From Asaia bogorensis (GTDB lineage: Bacteria > Pseudomonadota > Alphaproteobacteria > Acetobacterales > Acetobacteraceae): a stretch of 64,000 bases of DNA. A model generated the notes under the pieces. It searched no databases, had not been told where the DNA came from, and saw only the letters and a list, made by a program, of their open reading frames with translations. Position numbers and translations under genes: made by a program. The DNA lies in NCBI GenBank assembly GCA_945897825.1, contig CAMDGX010000008.1, positions 1 through 64,000 of the forward strand. The letters are read 5' to 3'. Shown one piece after another: positions 48,269-64,000 of this stretch (position 1 is the first letter of the stretch; each line of letters opens with the position of its first letter).

Positions 48269-49111
48269 ATGATAATGCGGACTTTCTTACAAAGCGGTTT
48301 CGTCGCGTTGGCTTTCGCCTCGTCGGCTTTGATGGGTCAGGCCGGAGCGGCGCCAGTGTACGACACGTCTGTCGGGCCGGCTAACCTGAGTGGCTCGCGC
48401 ACGTTTTCTGCAACTGAGTTCGAACTGGATGCCGGGGGCAATGGGATCTCCAGTTCCACCTTCGGATCCCTGACGATCAGCTGGGACATCGGCTACACGA
48501 TGGGCGTGACACCCTGGCGCTATTCCTACACCGTTTCCTGGACCCCGTCGAATTCTCTCAGCAACATCAGCCACTTCATACTCGACCTGAGCGACAACTG
48601 CTCCGTGGCGGGCTCTAACTGCGTCGTGGACCCCGTGAAGGTGAATGCCCAAGGGGTTGCGTCGAGCGCGAGCGTGAGCCCCGGGACCTACGGCCAAGAC
48701 GGCTCGAATCCTTTCATGGCTGGTCAAATCACCGGCGTGAAGTTCAACGTTGAGATGGGTACCCCCTATACGATCGAGTTCGACTCCGCCCGCGCGCCGG
48801 TGTGGGGCGACTTCTACACCAAGGGGGGCAACCCGAGTGATTCGCCCAGTGGGGGGTCGGTCAAGGGTTGGTATGCCCAGAATCTCGGCATCGATGCACT
48901 GACCAAGGCGACGTCCAGTGACATCCTCGCCTTCATCGCGACGCCGGATACCGTCACCACCATGACCTGCCCGGGTGGCATTGGAACGTTTCCGAACTGC
49001 AACCAGCAGAACGTTGAAACCCCGGAGCCGGCGAGCCTGGCGCTGTTGGGCATGGGGCTTCTCGGCCTCGCCGGGGCGCGGGCGCGGCGGCAGCGGGCCG
49101 TTCAGGCCTGA
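48269..49111 (+). CDS. PEP-CTERM sorting-domain protein
   Basis: A 280-residue exported protein with a signal peptide (FLQSGFVALAFASSALMG, cleavage near AGAAP) and a C-terminal sorting signal TPEPASLALLGMGLLGLAGARARRQRA: PEP motif, hydrophobic helix, basic tail. Such proteins are recognised by an exosortase and placed at the surface, often with exopolysaccharide. The mature part is Ser/Thr/Gly-rich with no family I recognise; four Cys may form disulfides. The start (ATG at 48269, or 48275) is not firm. It follows the LuxR-type gene and its palindrome. Confidence 0.85.
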   Translation: MIMRTFLQSGFVALAFASSALMGQAGAAPVYDTSVGPANLSGSRTFSATEFELDAGGNGISSSTFGSLTISWDIGYTMGVTPWRYSYTVSWTPSNSLSNISHFILDLSDNCSVAGSNCVVDPVKVNAQGVASSASVSPGTYGQDGSNPFMAGQITGVKFNVEMGTPYTIEFDSARAPVWGDFYTKGGNPSDSPSGGSVKGWYAQNLGIDALTKATSSDILAFIATPDTVTTMTCPGGIGTFPNCNQQNVETPEPASLALLGMGLLGLAGARARRQRAVQA

Positions 49112-49197: not shown

Positions 49198-50346
49198 TCA
49201 GGCGGCGGTGGGCCGGCGGCGTCGGCTGGCGATGCCGAGGCCGAGGAGGGCGCTGCCGAGGAGAGCCAGGCTCGTGGGCTCGGGGATGTCGGTCTCGCCG
49301 ATCCCGCCGACGGCGAAGGCCGTGTCGAATGATTCCTGCGCGCGCCTGGTGGGCTTGCCGCCGCCGGTCGTGGTGGTCTTCTTGCCGCCGCCGCCAGTGG
49401 TGGTCGTCGTGGTTGTCGTGGTCGTCGTCGTCGTGGTTGCGGTCGTGGTGCCGGCCACGGTGTTCCAGCCGAGAACGTCCATGACGATCTTGTCGGCCAG
49501 CGTCAGGTCGTTGACCACGCCGGCATGGGCATAGGCGCTGTAGGAGTCGCCGGCGGTGGAGGCCCAGTCGGTGCGGTCGGCGGTGCCGGCGTTGTTGAAG
49601 CTGGCGAGGGCGGTGTTGCCGCCGTCGATGGAGAAGTAGGCGGGGGCGGTGTAGCTGAAGCTCGAGGTGCCGGGCGCGCCGTAGCGGAAGATGTCGATCG
49701 GCAGGGCGTTGACCGGCGAGGAGCCGCCCAGGCCGGAGACCCGGCCGAGGACGTGGCTGATTTCGTGCAGGGCGACGCCCATGAAGTCGTAGGTGCCGGC
49801 GGAGATGCCGTCGGTGCGGTCGAAATCGAAGGCGTAGCCGGCGCCGAAACCGACATAGCCGTCGGTTGCCGTGGAGATGGCCGGGGCAATGCCCATGGCG
49901 CGGGCGAGGGCCGGGGTGAGGGTGTAGTTCAGCGTTCCAGCCGGGCTGCTGCGGGCCATGCTGCCGTAGGCGAGCTGGTCGTAGGAGGAGGTGGAGGTGG
50001 CGCCGAGCATCGACTGGATCTGGCTGTAGCTGTAGCTGCCGTAGCCCGTCATGCCGGCGACGCCGATGCTGGTGACCGGGGAGCCGAGGAGCTCACCCCA
50101 GCCGACATGCAGGTTGATGGTGACGGGGTTGACGAACATCTTCTCGTAGACGCTGGCGGCGGCCTGGAAGGCGGATTTCACCTGGGTCGCATTGGAGAGG
50201 TTGTTCACGCTGGTGGCATAGGTGGTGTTGATGGTGAGGGCAGAGGCGGTGTCGGTGGCGCCGAGGAGCAGGGCGGCGCCGAGGATGGCCGCGAGCGCGG
50301 GGCGCGCCGCTTCGGACGGGAAGGTTCGATTCGCGGCGTTCGGCAT
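49198..50346 (-). CDS. PEP-CTERM zinc metalloprotease (NF038122 family)
   Basis: A 382-residue exported protein: signal peptide (LAAILGAALLLGATDTASA), a protease domain with the metzincin-like zinc motif HEISHVLG (His194, Glu195, His198), a threonine-rich linker at about residues 300-330 (long runs of Thr, then Gly/Lys), and a PEP-CTERM tail (IPEPTSLALLGSALLGLGIASRRRR). I recognise this as the NF038122 metalloprotease family. The Thr run is a likely glycosylation or spacer segment. The GGAG ribosome site and a GTAACTCT-bearing inverted repeat upstream link it with the other PEP-CTERM gene. Confidence 0.9.
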   Translation of the reverse strand: MPNAANRTFPSEAARPALAAILGAALLLGATDTASALTINTTYATSVNNLSNATQVKSAFQAAASVYEKMFVNPVTINLHVGWGELLGSPVTSIGVAGMTGYGSYSYSQIQSMLGATSTSSYDQLAYGSMARSSPAGTLNYTLTPALARAMGIAPAISTATDGYVGFGAGYAFDFDRTDGISAGTYDFMGVALHEISHVLGRVSGLGGSSPVNALPIDIFRYGAPGTSSFSYTAPAYFSIDGGNTALASFNNAGTADRTDWASTAGDSYSAYAHAGVVNDLTLADKIVMDVLGWNTVAGTTTATTTTTTTTTTTTTTGGGGKKTTTTGGGKPTRRAQESFDTAFAVGGIGETDIPEPTSLALLGSALLGLGIASRRRRPTAA

Positions 50347-57811: not shown

Positions 57812-58186
57812 ATGTCGGACGACATCAAGCAGATCGAGGCGGTGCTGCAGACCTATTTCGATGGGCTGTACGAGGGCGATGCGGGCAAGCTGGCGGCGGC
57901 GTTCCATGACAGCGCCGATCTGCGGAGCGTGGCGGCGGACGGGTCGTTGGCGGTGCTGCCGCGGGCGCAGTGGCTGGAGGGGGTGAAGAGCCGGCCTTCG
58001 GCGAAGGCGCAGGGGCTGGAGCGCAAGGACTGGGTGGTGTCGATCGACCGGTCGGGGCCGAACACGGCATTCGCCAAGGTGCAGTGCCAGATTCCGCCGC
58101 GCTATTTCACCGACTACCTGTCGCTGGCGAAGGTCGGCGGCGCATGGAAGGTGGTTGCCAAGACCTTCCACACCGACACGCGCTGA
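57812..58186 (+). CDS. NTF2-like (lumazine-binding family) small protein
   Basis: A 124-residue protein of the NTF2-like fold (Lumazine_bd_2/SnoaL-like). It starts IKQIEAVLQTYFDGLYEGDAGKLAAAFH, typical for helix 1 and the loop, and ends with DYLSLAKVGGAWKVVAKTFH. Such proteins bind small ligands or act as isomerases; the role is unknown. An AGGAGGG ribosome site precedes the ATG. It is 50 bases after the Acr3-type gene on the same strand, so could be co-transcribed. Confidence 0.88.
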   Translation: MSDDIKQIEAVLQTYFDGLYEGDAGKLAAAFHDSADLRSVAADGSLAVLPRAQWLEGVKSRPSAKAQGLERKDWVVSIDRSGPNTAFAKVQCQIPPRYFTDYLSLAKVGGAWKVVAKTFHTDTR

Positions 58187-58194
58187 GCGGGCGG

Positions 58195-58221
58195 CGCCCC
58201 CTTCCGCTGGGGGAGGGGGCG
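58195..58221 (+). terminator. GC-rich hairpin after the NTF2-like gene
   Basis: A CGCCCCC...GGGGGCG stem with a purine/pyrimidine-rich extension starts nine bases past the stop. No T run is visible, so intrinsic termination is uncertain. The 250 bases up to the next gene hold no other clear signal; an AT-richer patch around 58285-58345 could carry a promoter. Confidence 0.45.
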
Positions 58222-58471
58222 GGCGCGGGGCGGGCGGGGCGTTCGTTGCGCGGCATGGGGGTTGCAGCGCGGAAGCAATGATCCCTTCGCGCGACATACA
58301 ATGGCATGATTTCACAACGGTGTGAGCGGGAAGGCGGGTGGGGGTTTTCCCGACTTGCAATGACAGCGCCGATCCGCAAGTGAGGATGGCAGCGGGCGAA
58401 AAACCGGCCGCAGCAGGGGGAAACACCTTGGTCGATCAAGCAAAATGCGGCCTGGCCGTCGGGAGAGTGGG

Positions 58472-58717
58472 GTGATTCCGGGCTCGATCTTCGAGCAGAT
58501 CTCGAGCACCCCCACGAGCCAGCAGATGCGGGATGCGGCCAACGAGCTGGGCCTGCGGATCGCACATGGCGAGTTCGACGACCTTGACGACATGCAGCGG
58601 GGCGACCTGCAGGTGCTGGCGCAGATGCTGGAGCATTGGGCGCGGCGGGTGATGGACCTGGAGGCGGCGATGCTGCCGCTGGCTGCGGCGGACCAACAGC
58701 AGCGGGCGAAATCGTGA
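58472..58717 (+). CDS. Small hypothetical protein upstream of a STAS/Hpt/response-regulator group
   Basis: About 81 residues (or 90 if the ATG at 58445 is used). The GTG at 58472 has GGGAG a few bases upstream. The sequence is mostly helical and acidic: IFEQISSTPTSQQMRDAANELGLRIAHGEFDDLDDMQRGDLQVLAQMLEHWARRVMDLEA. No family is recognised. Its place ahead of STAS, Hpt and sigma-54 regulator genes suggests a signalling role. A chance frame cannot be excluded. Confidence 0.5.
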   Translation: MIPGSIFEQISSTPTSQQMRDAANELGLRIAHGEFDDLDDMQRGDLQVLAQMLEHWARRVMDLEAAMLPLAAADQQQRAKS

Positions 58718-58948
58718 GCGCAGGGACGCGGCATCCATTGCAATCTGCGACGCGCTGGTCCCATTTTAACGAATTTTTGCGAATTGCAATGCGATATGCG
58801 TCGATGGCCGGGGGCGATTTGACGCATTTGGCGCAATGTGGCCGGGATTGGCGGCCGGACCGCTGGCACGGGGCGTGCATCAGCTTTCGCCATTGACGGT
58901 GCGTGCGTCGGCAGAGGCCGGCGAGGGCGGCCCGGGCCGGAGCAGGCG

Positions 58949-59305
58949 ATGTTCGAGCGGATCCACAGCGAAGAAGGCCTGGTGCGGTTGCACCTGCGCG
59001 GCGGCCTGGACGGCGATGCCAGCCGCGCCATGCGCGACGGATTGGCCGCCCTTGCCGCGGTCGAGGCGCGCGAGGTGGTGATCGATTTTTCCAACGTGAC
59101 GTTCATCGATGGCTCCGGGCTTGGAGCGATTTCTTTTCTTTTCAAGCGCCTGACGGCGCGTGGACGGCGGTTGACGGTGTCTGGCGTATCGGGCCAGCCG
59201 CTCGCCATGCTGCGCCACCTGGGGCTTGCCGGGTTGTTGGGCATGGATGGCGGGGGGCGGCGTTCCTCCTTCCTGTCGTGGCCGGGCCTCGCCTGGGCGC
59301 GCTGA
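58949..59305 (+). CDS. STAS domain protein (anti-sigma factor antagonist-like)
   Basis: A 118-residue single STAS domain. It follows the SpoIIAA-like plan: LVRLHLRGGLDGDASRAMRDGLAAL, VVIDFSNVTFIDGSGLGAISFLF with the phosphorylatable Ser in the DGSG loop, and GQPLAMLRHLGLAGLLGM. Such proteins are switched by a serine kinase/phosphatase pair, none of which is in this window. The longer frame upstream adds a Gly/Arg-rich stretch and is rejected. It precedes the Hpt and sigma-54 regulator genes, suggesting a partner-switch branch of the same system. Confidence 0.85.
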   Translation: MFERIHSEEGLVRLHLRGGLDGDASRAMRDGLAALAAVEAREVVIDFSNVTFIDGSGLGAISFLFKRLTARGRRLTVSGVSGQPLAMLRHLGLAGLLGMDGGGRRSSFLSWPGLAWAR

Positions 59306-59476
59306 CGGGAATTCGACTTTTGAGTGCCCCGATCTCGGGGCCGCTTTTCAGACGCTGATTTTCAGCGGCCCGGGTGGCTTTGGCCATCCGGGCCATTTTT
59401 CTTGCGGTGCTTGCGTATGCGCCCCGAGTTGCGCGAGTTTGGCGCCGCCGGTTTACGGGAGCAACGGAAGGACTGG

Positions 59477-59808
59477 ATGAGCGATCTTGGTTTTGCGACC
59501 CAACTGGCCGAAGACCTGTCGCCGGATGACCTGCGCATGGTGCTGTCGGTGTTTCGCACCGATGTGGAGCGGCTGACGGCCGCGCTTTCGGGGGCGGCGC
59601 AGGCCGGGGATGCGGCGGGATTCCGGCGCGCGGCGCATGGCTTGGCGGGGGCCGCGGGCGCGGTGGGGGCCGCGGCGCTGGAACGGGCCTGCCGGGCGGC
59701 GATGGAGGGGGATGGCCCGATTCCCGGCGCGATGCTGGAGATCGGCGCGGTGGCCAGGGTGGCGCTGGGCGACCTTGCGCGGATCCTGGCCGGGCTCGAC
59801 GGCCAGCC

Positions 59809-59812
<4 letters not shown>
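59477..59812 (+). CDS. Hpt (histidine phosphotransfer) protein
   Basis: A 111-residue Hpt four-helix protein. The phosphoacceptor His54 lies in RRAAHGLAGAAGAVGAAALERACRAAE-like sequence, matching the Hpt pattern His-x-Leu-Lys/Ala-Gly with a following Gly-Ala. SPDDLRMVLSVFRTDVERL forms the preceding helix. The ATG has GGAAGGA upstream; its stop overlaps the response-regulator start (ATGA). It would pass phosphate from an unlinked hybrid kinase to the adjacent regulator, as LuxU does for LuxO. Confidence 0.88.
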
Positions 59813-61347
<1,535 letters not shown>

Positions 61348-61388
61348 GCGGCGGTGGGTGGCGTTGCAGGATTCTTGAAAGCTTTGCG

Positions 61389-61401
61389 TGACATGTTGTC
61401 A
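61389..61401. promoter_or_regulatory. Palindrome TGACA-TGT-TGTCA next to the sigma-54 promoter
   Basis: A 13-base element with perfect 5-bp arms, ending three bases before the TGG of the -24 box. The position is close for an enhancer-binding activator and equally suited to a second regulator that blocks polymerase. It may be the site of the NtrC-type protein or of another factor. Confidence 0.45.
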
Positions 61402-61404
61402 CTG

Positions 61405-61420
61405 TGGTACACGGATTGCA
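61405..61420 (+). promoter_or_regulatory. Sigma-54 promoter (-24/-12) of the sugar transferase gene
   Basis: TGGTACACGGATTGCA matches the sigma-54 consensus TGGCACG-N4-TTGCA with the invariant GG (61406-61407) and GC (61418-61419) separated by exactly 10 bases. Transcription should start near 61430, about 75 bases before the ATG of the sugar transferase gene. It follows directly after the sigma-54-dependent activator gene, which is strong circumstantial support. Confidence 0.75.
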
Positions 61421-61506
61421 TCTCAGTTCAAAATTGAAGACGCGCTGTCCGGTGGCGACGGGCAGATTCGCGAATGGCTGCTGGCCGATGTCATGAAGGC
61501 GGACCG

Positions 61507-62289
61507 ATGACCGAGCCGACCCTGATTGCGCCCACCATGGCTAAGCCGCACGTGACTGCGCCTCATTTGGCCGTTCCCGGCCCGACCCTGCAGGATCCCC
61601 TGATGTCTGAACGCAAGCGCGTCGCGGCCGCCTTGACGACCGAACAGTTCGTCGCGGTGGACTACATCCCGCGCAGCGTTCTGGTGGCCAAGCGGGCGAT
61701 GGACATCCTGGTCGCGGTGTTCGGGCTGTTGCTGACCGCGCCGCTGTGGCCGCTGGTGGCGCTGGCGATCCGGCTCGATTCGCCCGGGCCGGTGATCTAC
61801 CGCCAGATGCGGGTGGGGCGGATGCGGGCGGACCGGACCGATGTGTTCATGATCCTGAAGTTCCGCTCGATGCGCGCCGATGCGGAGAAGGGCACCGGGG
61901 CGGTGTGGGCGCAGAAGCACGATCCGCGCATCACCCGGGTGGGGGCGTTCATCCGCAAGACGCGGCTCGACGAGTTGCCGCAGCTGATCAACGTGCTGCG
62001 CGGCGACATGTCGGTGGTGGGGCCGCGGCCGGAGCGGCCGGCGATGTATGGGCGGCTGGAGCAGGCGGTGCCGTTCTTCGCCGACCGCACCGCGGGGCTG
62101 CGCCCGGGGGTTACGGGGCTGACGCAGGTGGTTCAGGGCTACGACAACAGCGTGGAGGATGTGCGGCGCAAGGTGGGGTTCGATGCCGCCTATGCCATGC
62201 GGCTGGCGACGTTCCGCGGCTGGCTGGCCTCCGACATGTCGATCATGCTGCGCACGCTCAATGTGATGGTGTCTGGCCGGGGGCAGTAG
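61507..62289 (+). CDS. Undecaprenyl-phosphate sugar phosphotransferase (bacterial sugar transferase)
   Basis: A 260-residue protein of the PF02397 family, which transfers a sugar-1-phosphate onto undecaprenyl phosphate to start polysaccharide assembly. It has one membrane segment (about residues 65-85: [21 protein letters not shown]), then [31 protein letters not shown] and [25 protein letters not shown], the family signature. The ATG at 61507 has GAAGGCGG upstream; an ATG at 61474 would add 11 residues. A clear sigma-54 promoter lies upstream. A hairpin follows the stop. Confidence 0.92.
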
Positions 62290-62306
62290 GGCGGCGGCCG
62301 GGCCCT

Positions 62307-62339
62307 GGCCCCGCGCCTTCCTTTTGCGCGGCGGGGGCC
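62307..62339 (+). terminator. GC-rich hairpin after the sugar transferase gene
   Basis: GGCCCCGCGCC pairs imperfectly with a GCGCGGCGGGGGCC segment around a TTCCTTTT loop, 18 bases past the stop. The outer GGCCCC/GGGGCC arms are perfect. No T run follows. It could end the sugar transferase transcript before ppiD. Confidence 0.4.
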
Positions 62340-62411
62340 GATCTGGCATAGGGCGCTCTCCCTTGCGGCGCGCGTCGCGGCCGGGGGCTTTTCGCTGTCC
62401 GGGATGAACCG

Positions 62412-64000
62412 ATGATCTCCATGTTCCGCGCCTTCCTTGGCACCTGGGCGGCGAAGTTGTTCTTCGTCGCGCTGATCGGCGTGTTCGTGCTTTGGGGCGT
62501 GGGGGATGTGTTCACGAGCCGCACGACCGACCTGTCGGTGGCGACCGTCGGCGACAAGCGGATCGAGCTGGACGAGGTGAACGAGGCCTATCGCCGGCAG
62601 CTTTCGCAGGTGACGCGGATGCTGGGCGGGACGGTGGAGCCGACCATGGAGATGAAGCGCGGCGTGGCGGCGCAGGCGCTGGAGCGGCTGATCACCCAGG
62701 TTGCGGTGACGGCGGCGGTGGCGGACATGGGGCTGGTGGTGCCGGACGAGGCGCTGCGCCAGGCGGTGTGGGACACGCCGGCGTTCGCCGGGCCGGGCGG
62801 GCAGTTCGACCGCAACCAGTTCCAGGCGGTGCTGCGCAACAACGGGCTGAGCGAGCAGCGCTTCCTGGACATCATGCGCCAGGAGATCGCCCAGCGGCAG
62901 CTGCTGGCGACGGCGCGGGCGGGGGCGACGAGCCCGGAGGTGATGACGCGGCTGGTCTATGCGTTCCAGCAGGAGAAGCGCGTGGCGGAGATGGTGGAGC
63001 TGCGCTTCGATCGCGTGGCCCGCCCGGAGGCGCCGCCGCGGCTCGTGCTGGAGCGGTGGCATGCCAACAACATCCTGCGCTTCTCCACCCCGGAATACCG
63101 CCGCATCCGTGCGGTGGTGCTGGCGCCGGAGCGGCTGGTGGCGGAGGTCGAGGCGGACGAGATTTCGATGCGCGCGGCCTATGCGGCGCGGTCGGCGGAG
63201 TTCAACCAGCCGGAGCGGCGCAGCGTGCAGGTGCTGTTGAGCCAGGACGAGGCGCGGGCGAAGGCGCTGGCGGACCGCTGGGCGGGCGGGGCGGACTGGG
63301 CGGCGATGCAGGCGGCGGCGAAGGAAGACGGGGCGGCGCCGGTGGAGCTGACCGATGCGGTGCAGGGCGAGATCCCGGCGCCCGAGCTGGCCGAGGCGAT
63401 CTTCGCGGCGCCGGCCGAGACGGTGGCCGGGCCGGTGCGCAGCGCGCTGGGCTGGCACGTGGTGCGGGTGACGAAGGTGACGCCGGGCTCGACGCGCAGC
63501 TTCGAGGAGGTGCGGCCGCTGCTGGAGATCCAGGTGCGCAACGACAAGGCGGCGGACATTCTGTACGACCGCGCCAACAAGGTGGATGACCTGCTGGCCG
63601 GCGGTGCGCCGCTGGAGGAGATGCCGGGGGACCTGGGCCTGGCCGGGGTGGCGGGCACGCTGGATGCGCGCGGGATCACTTCCGACGGCACGCCGGCGCC
63701 GATCCCGGGCAGCGACGAGTTGCGCGCCGCGCTGATCCAGGCGGTGTTCCGGGCGCAGAAGGGCGAGCCGCCGCGGCTGATCGAGGCGCCGCGCCGGCCG
63801 GGGGTGCTGTCGGGCTACTTCGCCTTCGATGTGGAGGAGGTGATGCCGCCGGCGCCGCGCCCGTACGAGGAGGTGGCGGACGCGGTGCTGGAGGACTGGA
63901 CCGAGGCGGAGATCCGCCGCACCCAGGAGGAGGCGGCCGCGCGGATGCTGGAGGCGATCAAGGGCGGGCAGAGCCTGGCCGATGCCGCGCTGGTGGCCGA
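62412..64000 (+). CDS. ppiD: Peptidylprolyl isomerase PpiD/SurA-type chaperone (C-terminus beyond window)
   Basis: The first 529 residues of a periplasmic folding factor anchored in the inner membrane. MISMFRAFLGTWAAKLFFVALIGVFVLWGVGDVF is the N-terminal anchor. It is followed by a SurA_N-like domain (VATVGDKRIELDEVNEAYRRQLSQV, FDRNQFQAVLRNNGLSEQRFLDIMRQEI) and a parvulin-type domain with RSVQVLLSQDEARAKALADRW, GEIPAPELAEAIFAAP and GPVRSALGWHVVRVTKV. Parvulin active-site residues are only partly conserved, as usual in PpiD. The ATG at 62412 is the first that keeps the anchor intact. Downstream genes are outside. Confidence 0.88.
   Translation, partial: MISMFRAFLGTWAAKLFFVALIGVFVLWGVGDVFTSRTTDLSVATVGDKRIELDEVNEAYRRQLSQVTRMLGGTVEPTMEMKRGVAAQALERLITQVAVTAAVADMGLVVPDEALRQAVWDTPAFAGPGGQFDRNQFQAVLRNNGLSEQRFLDIMRQEIAQRQLLATARAGATSPEVMTRLVYAFQQEKRVAEMVELRFDRVARPEAPPRLVLERWHANNILRFSTPEYRRIRAVVLAPERLVAEVEADEISMRAAYAARSAEFNQPERRSVQVLLSQDEARAKALADRWAGGADWAAMQAAAKEDGAAPVELTDAVQGEIPAPELAEAIFAAPAETVAGPVRSALGWHVVRVTKVTPGSTRSFEEVRPLLEIQVRNDKAADILYDRANKVDDLLAGGAPLEEMPGDLGLAGVAGTLDARGITSDGTPAPIPGSDELRAALIQAVFRAQKGEPPRLIEAPRRPGVLSGYFAFDVEEVMPPAPRPYEEVADAVLEDWTEAEIRRTQEEAAARMLEAIKGGQSLADAALVA

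Follow-up and report, generated by a model that had tools for sequence, protein, structure and literature searches.

A conserved, predicted LuxO/SypG-class sigma-54 phosphorelay with syp-like parts in an Acetobacteraceae bacterium

Here we describe, in the Acetobacteraceae bacterium Asaia bogorensis, a predicted sigma-54 phosphorelay that is conserved in relatives, belongs to the LuxO/SypG class, and has parts like those of the syp system; the relay is ordinary in kind, and what is new is its host group and its wiring. The window that we analyzed is the initial 64,000 bases of C8, a contig of 80,966 bases in a genome of 4.93 Mb and 208 contigs. On the plus strand of this window, genes for a STAS protein, a histidine phosphotransfer (Hpt) protein, a sigma-54 response regulator, and a sugar transferase follow one another in that order. 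A preliminary description had placed the first three in line, and Pfam and NCBIfam profile matches together with the coordinates confirm it. In the route that we propose, a hybrid kinase encoded on contig C177 would phosphorylate the stand-alone Hpt protein (59477), which would pass the phosphate to Asp 56 of the regulator (59809). The regulator would then bind two LuxO-type boxes (58738 and 58777) and open a sigma-54 promoter at 58864, yielding a SypA-like STAS protein, and a terminator at 59367 would probably let little transcription through to the Hpt and regulator genes. The sugar transferase, which would initiate a surface polysaccharide, would be transcribed from a separate predicted sigma-54 promoter (61405), for which the same LuxO/SypG-class regulator is the most likely activator. 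Judged from sequence, this syp-type route is moderately probable as a whole.

The Hpt protein (59477..59812, plus strand; Pfam, 39.5 bits) is the only short, stand-alone frame among the five Hpt matches in the genome, and its phospho-site His is present in all 46 aligned Hpt rows. The regulator that follows (59809..61347, plus strand) has the receiver Asp 56, a GAFTGA motif, and a Fis-type helix-turn-helix (HTH), and lies nearer to LuxO than to NtrC, NtrX, or PrsR. Its best NCBIfam model is LuxO (NF041946), at 582 bits and under the equivalog cut-off of 800; the next is ntrC at 378 bits, and the score against PrsR (TIGR02915) is 355.8 bits, under the cut-off of 502.6. The best solved structure is LuxO 5ep0 (444 bits), with which the region linking the receiver to the AAA+ domain, where LuxO has its inhibitory glycine, can be aligned. 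In a quick tree with long branches, the LuxO-like rows stand apart from the PrsR, NtrX, and two NtrC-like rows of the same genome (support 100). Within that tree, 45 regulator rows, nearly all from Acetobacteraceae and their kin, form one clade (support 100) that excludes LuxO, the Vibrio and Grimontia rows, and a single Acetobacteraceae row, L160. On these sequence features the regulator belongs to the LuxO/SypG class, being neither LuxO nor demonstrably SypG. The conserved His and the receiver Asp are consistent with phosphorylation of the regulator by way of the Hpt protein, and the genome contains one match to rpoN.

The strongest claim of this study, and one that is well supported by the predicted sites, is that the regulator acts on LuxO-type boxes to control its own STAS unit. 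The STAS-domain protein (58949..59305, plus strand; Pfam STAS_2, 54 bits) is SypA-like and is preceded by a predicted sigma-54 -24/-12 element, TGGCACGGGGCGTGCA (58864..58879, plus strand), which had been overlooked in the preliminary description. Between this element and the STAS start are 69 bases, and 8 of 8 aligned genus rows have a similar element at this place. Upstream of it lie two putative enhancer boxes, TTGCAATCTGCGA (58738..58750) and TTGCGAATTGCAA (58777..58789), which both resemble the motif TTGCAWWWTGCAA; each has one mismatch to the relaxed form TYGCAWWWTGCRA. According to PMC10162802, TTGCAWWWTGCAA is the LuxO upstream activating sequence, and in Vibrio fischeri SypG activates qrr1 via two sites that overlap it.

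The public relatives that share the locus are mostly metagenome genomes of Acetobacteraceae, Rhodospirillales, or Alphaproteobacteria. We took a census of both elements in 44 family loci (L125, with 162 bases of upstream sequence, was dropped). Sigma-54 sites with at most one penalty point and boxes with at most one mismatch were scored over 300 bases ahead of STAS, or ahead of Hpt in loci that lack STAS within 3 kb, and 200 dinucleotide shuffles served as the control. A sigma-54 site is present in 21 of the 44 loci (shuffle mean 0.25, maximum 2), a box in 22 (mean 0.41, maximum 3), and the two together in 19 (mean 0.00, maximum 0); because the loci are related, these 19 do not represent 19 independent events. 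The elements go with STAS: when loci are sorted by the presence of STAS within 3 kb of the regulator, the 19 that have it close by show a sigma-54 site in 18 cases and a box in 17, whereas only 3 of the 25 without it have a sigma-54 site before Hpt. L105, in which STAS lies further upstream, was placed among the 25.

Across the whole genome, the LuxO-type box occurs at 20 sites compared to 1 in a reversed control. Shuffles of the window yield 0.42 boxes per 64 kb, however, or about 32 when scaled to the genome, so the count proves nothing, and we rejected the box as the mark of a genome-wide regulon; only the pairing of sites and their conservation carry weight. Pairs of boxes with members 34-47 bases apart are found on C8, C18, and C19. 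The C19 pair (L258:8276-8553) includes one exact box and stands before a sigma-54-like site (penalty 2), with a CtrA-like response regulator gene (174 bits, cut-off 350) downstream.

Just upstream of the two boxes in the window is a gene for a small conserved protein of 81 residues (58472..58717, plus strand), predicted to fold as a helical hairpin (mean pLDDT 81). Members of its family have about 80 residues and the motif GEYDDLDD; at E 0.001, neither Pfam nor NCBIfam matched the longer frame from 58445. A sigma-54-like -24/-12 element with one departure, CGGCATGGGGGTTGCA (58251..58266, plus strand), precedes the gene. Its penalty is 0 or 1 in all but two of the 8 genus loci; in these two, L090 and L116, the best is only 3.5. 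The genome has a second copy of the small protein on C18 (L257:8141-8401), and a sigma-54-like site lies upstream of both copies.

Between STAS and Hpt there is a predicted intrinsic terminator of 12-13 pairs followed by a T run (59367..59394, plus strand), which the first reading of the DNA had also missed. The hairpin and its T run are present in 8 of 8 genus loci, and three pairs are altered on both sides with pairing preserved. Outside the genus, the STAS-Hpt gap is -4 to 109 bases in L100, L101, L110, L113, L119, L120, L122, and L124, and no such hairpin was found in the gap of any of these eight loci. In L096-L098 the gap is 428-431 bases and its hairpins are weak, at about -9 kcal/mol versus about -24 to -27 in the genus. 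Given this terminator, the sigma-54 promoter at 58864 probably serves mainly STAS in the genus, and STAS is probably set apart from the Hpt and regulator genes.

The kinase that feeds the Hpt protein had been described as missing, which is true of the 64-kb window; the genome has an ortholog of the candidate on contig C177. The gene neighborhood in relatives points to it. In L096, L097, L098, and L119, STAS is preceded on its own strand by a hybrid kinase gene, and in L100 and L113 a single predicted gene intervenes; by Pfam, the L098 and L100 kinases have HisKA, HATPase, and receiver domains and no Hpt. Searched against our genome, the L098 kinase matches C177 256-2991 best (911 residues, 54% identity, 801 bits), in an alignment that spans residues 50-919 of 930. 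This protein is a membrane hybrid kinase with a dCache-like sensor, a HisKA-HATPase-REC-REC arrangement, and no Hpt, just the type of hybrid kinase without its own Hpt for which a genome search had been proposed. The phospho-acceptor Asp is kept in 35 of 36 rows in the first receiver, which rules out a pseudo-receiver there, and in 36 of 36 rows in the second. No good sigma-54 site is found in the 255 bases upstream of the C177 gene. Because this gene is unlinked, the relay is not self-contained, contrary to the preliminary description.

The kinase and the regulator also tend to occur together. Among 299 family genomes, the kinase is present in 39 of the 52 with the regulator versus 20 of the 247 without it, and 227 have neither; at the level of genera, which are not independent of each other (n = 102), 15 have both, 7 the regulator alone, 5 the kinase alone, and 75 neither. 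The cut-offs behind these counts (kinase E 1e-110, regulator E 1e-150) were both set after viewing the lists, and the regulator of G233, a contig-end fragment with 77% identity, falls under the one for the regulator. In 8 of the 39 genomes with both, from five genera, the matches lie within 2.5 kb on one strand. The 13 regulator genomes without a detected kinase ortholog and the 20 genomes that have the kinase without the regulator count against the model.

Control of the sugar transferase by the regulator is the weakest claim and is unproven. The enzyme is a polyprenyl-phosphate sugar-1-phosphate transferase (61507..62289, plus strand; Bac_transf, PF02397, 190 bits) of the short form, with Bac_transf alone matched, over residues 73-266 of a 271-residue frame; the genus alignment and the codon model agree on 61507 as the most likely start, not 61474. 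Its gene follows the regulator in the window, in 7 further genus loci, and in L097, L098, L100, and L119. A putative sigma-54 -24/-12 element, TGGTACACGGATTGCA (61405..61420, plus strand), lies in the gap. It had been described as a near-consensus promoter with GG and GC exactly 10 bases apart, and this holds up: GG is at 61406-61407 and GC at 61418-61419, and in 8 of 8 aligned genus rows the GG and ATTGC columns are invariant and the flanks diverge. TGGTACACGGATTGCA is one of 9 exact TGGYACRNNNNTTGCW matches on both strands of the 4.93-Mb genome, where simple arithmetic predicts about 1e-4 per strand in a stretch of the gap's length. With at most one mismatch, TGGYACRNNNNTTGCW is not enriched genome-wide (75 sites versus 104 in the reversed control), so the evidence for the 61405 element rests on position and conservation. 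Defining a genome-wide sigma-54 regulon by pattern was abandoned, with a narrower pattern, tried first, giving 3 sites versus 13 in the control. Sigma-54 sites occur within 250 bases after the regulator in 11 loci (shuffle mean 0.2, maximum 2), and no sigma-70-like site was found in a scan of 58150-62450. In L095, one of the 8 genus rows, three tandem sigma-54-like sites 23 bases apart precede the sugar transferase (L095:8631-8692).

Two candidate binding sites near this promoter were set aside. The sugar transferase promoter in the window has no LuxO-type box within two mismatches; the best one nearby has three and lies inside the HTH codons of the regulator. We rejected it as an enhancer and retain it just as a lead, given that its rare TTG codon, although fixed in the 4 genus sequences that passed our filter (4 others were dropped by it), is no more constant than chance allows: a single codon is retained at 216 of 385 conserved positions. 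The palindrome TGACA-TGT-TGTCA, TGACATGTTGTCA (61389..61401), which had been pointed out next to the promoter, is indeed present, but the other 7 genus rows lack it, and the pattern with at most one mismatch has at least one match in 40 of 100 window shuffles. We found no inverted repeat common to the sigma-54 sites that we inspected, and TGACATGTTGTCA is probably a chance match and not an operator. The idea of a relay dedicated to the sugar transferase is not supported; the proposed link to exopolysaccharide stands insofar as relatives carry polysaccharide genes at the locus, and its other part, control of the sugar transferase, is the unproven one.

Several of these steps could be read in other ways. 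The Hpt protein might be fed by another kinase, or by several at once as LuxU is. One candidate is the hybrid kinase at C8 65975-69064 (L070:4976-8065), a 1029-residue dCache-PAS-HisKA-HATPase-REC protein without a Pfam Hpt match, whose gene is the third after the sugar transferase (a peptidyl-prolyl isomerase gene and, by eye, a trpE-like gene lie in between), and similar frames are found there in several genus loci. We consider this option unlikely: in other genera the C8 kinase did not turn up in the position ahead of STAS, its C-terminus resembles a degenerate Hpt by eye, and it scores 211 bits with the L098 kinase compared to 801 for the C177 kinase, making it the less likely partner of the two. 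The STAS protein, for its part, had been suggested as a possible partner-switch input, which could act on the relay or on a sigma factor. Indeed, its domain resembles anti-sigma factor antagonists (TIGR00377, 43.9 bits, under the cut-off of 53.45; SpoIIAA structures, E about 1e-4), and the presumed regulatory serine is present in 8 of 8 genus rows and 15 of 21 rows overall. In 6 of the 20 Acetobacteraceae rows, however, the serine is replaced by P, A, or D, and single-sequence searches of the collected Acetobacteraceae loci found no SypE-like serine kinase/phosphatase and no SpoIIE or HATPase_c_2 partner. The position of the STAS gene behind the presumed boxes of the regulator argues for STAS as an output of the relay, and we regard the input reading as improbable.

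At the sugar transferase, the lack of genome-wide enrichment of the one-mismatch pattern would fit a 61405 element that is a chance match or an inactive relic. This is highly improbable for an exact match in the right place, with a core that is invariant in 8 genus rows amid diverged flanks and with no sigma-70-like site in the scanned region. A more serious alternative is that the regulator acts only on the STAS unit, perhaps together with a few distant genes, and that the sugar transferase answers to another sigma-54 activator, most likely PrsR of the XrtA/PEP-CTERM system. The genome has PrsR (629 bits, cut-off 503), PrsK (526, cut-off 300), and PrsT (543, cut-off 312) in a polysaccharide locus on C2, which gives it two sigma-54 polysaccharide systems. 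Three of the 9 exact sigma-54 sites, on C23, C33, and C52, stand before PEP-CTERM proteins identified by Pfam, and a fourth, on C140, before a weak PEP-CTERM match under the cut-off; in Aquincola, a PEP-CTERM gene is reported to be RpoN-dependent (PMC9850573). Together, the Prs genes on C2 and these exact sites make PrsR a reasonable rival. Further points in its favor are the absence of a LuxO-type box at the sugar transferase promoter and the second-best NCBIfam match of the transferase itself, EpsB_2 of the XrtA/PEP-CTERM type (217 bits, under the cut-off of 393). On the other hand, the transferase adjoins the LuxO/SypG-class regulator in the genus and in L097, L098, L100, and L119. The last codons of the regulator contain a one-mismatch box in L096-L098 and L124 and an exact box in L105, and downstream of the regulator L105 and L124 have a good sigma-54 site, L097 and L098 a weak one, and L096 none. 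When the sequences ahead of 12 sigma-54 sites were compared for common 7-mers and inverted repeats, no motif marking a PrsR enhancer emerged. We see control by PrsR as possible yet doubtful, and the LuxO/SypG-class regulator as the most likely activator. The C2 locus (L235:5272-14883) holds PrsT, PrsR, PrsK, a sugar transferase, and an XrtA/PEP-CTERM export protein. Within the window, two neighboring genes (48356-49111 and 49198-50346) encode proteins that end in PEP-CTERM-like sorting signals, recognized by eye in the first and by TIGR02595 in the second; the second also matches the NF038122 metalloprotease family.

In relatives, the locus comes closer to the syp arrangement. A Poly_export/SLBB gene, found by Pfam, precedes the Hpt and regulator genes in L080, L105, L106, L108, and L123. 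In L105 (3971-9596), the STAS frame, Poly_export, Hpt, and regulator stand in the order of the Vibrio locus, and a sigma-54 site (penalty 1) and an exact LuxO box lie upstream of the STAS frame; this frame appears cut short or fused to the next gene. Clustering had also suggested STAS before Poly_export in L080, L106, L108, and L123, but the L080 frame has no Pfam match and no STAS motif turned up there, so that L105 alone counts for this order. Frames of cluster c4 are found in 9 of 45 locus maps, and the one member that was checked, in L114, is a family 2 glycosyltransferase. In Vibrio ulleungensis (L136), a haem-NO-binding protein, a hybrid kinase, STAS, OmpA, Poly_export, one unchecked gene, a stand-alone Hpt, the regulator, and a glycosyltransferase are all in line, a gene order that we take to be the syp layout. 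As in our window, the stand-alone Hpt of L136 directly precedes the regulator, and by eye the STAS proteins of both share the motifs KRL and GQPL. In Grimontia, a SypE-like protein with HATPase_c_2, receiver, and SpoIIE domains lies near the regulator (L129:3256-7911), and a hybrid kinase with its own Hpt adjoins it.

Among known systems, the closest parallel is syp of Vibrio fischeri, where SypA is a STAS protein, SypF carries an Hpt domain, and SypG is a sigma-54 regulator. Both have STAS, an Hpt step, and a LuxO-class sigma-54 regulator beside polysaccharide genes, with LuxO-type boxes (predicted here) upstream of a sigma-54 promoter. In contrast to syp, our regulator belongs to a separate clade, the kinase is unlinked and of another architecture, a single sugar transferase is linked in the window in place of a polysaccharide synthesis and export cluster, and in the genus a conserved terminator splits STAS from the Hpt and regulator genes. 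The preliminary description had likened the relay to LuxU/LuxO, in which LuxU is a stand-alone Hpt protein that feeds LuxO. This comparison is apt for a LuxO-class regulator next to a stand-alone Hpt and for the LuxO-type boxes, but the parts fit syp better: the regulator scores 582 bits where the LuxO equivalog requires 800, and its neighbors are STAS and a sugar transferase. PrsK/PrsR also ties a sigma-54 regulator to exopolysaccharide; PrsR is of a different family from our regulator, and we know of no Hpt step in that system. The ShkA-ShpA-TacA pathway of Caulobacter, in which TacA is a sigma-54-dependent regulator, offers a parallel for the kinase. In this pathway, a hybrid kinase acts through a separate Hpt on the regulator (PMC7010744). 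Like ShkA, the C177 protein is an alphaproteobacterial hybrid kinase with two receivers, followed by a separate Hpt and then a regulator; the first receiver of ShkA is a pseudo-receiver that binds c-di-GMP, whereas here both receivers keep the acceptor Asp.

A broader account would make this an old alphaproteobacterial counterpart of syp with STAS as its regulated output. One genus would have evolved the STAS-Hpt terminator, so that STAS is amplified without the regulator; distant genes reached via box pairs, including the CtrA-like gene on C19, would tie polysaccharide to a wider program; and in some species a binding site would lie within the codons of the regulator's own DNA-binding helix. 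Taken jointly, these proposals are speculative and on balance unlikely. A literature search of titles and abstract openings found no description of such a module in Acetobacteraceae-type bacteria. How the syp STAS protein acts was described in 2015 as undetermined (PMC4517449). Limobrevibacterium gyesilva RN2-1 (L100) carries the kinase, STAS (its serine replaced by Pro), Hpt, regulator, and sugar transferase genes together, and because it has all five, this question could be examined outside Vibrio. If the parts work as proposed, Alphaproteobacteria would have a syp-like module with a stand-alone Hpt, a candidate kinase identified by gene neighborhood, enhancer boxes predicted from sequence, and a STAS protein that the regulator itself appears to control.
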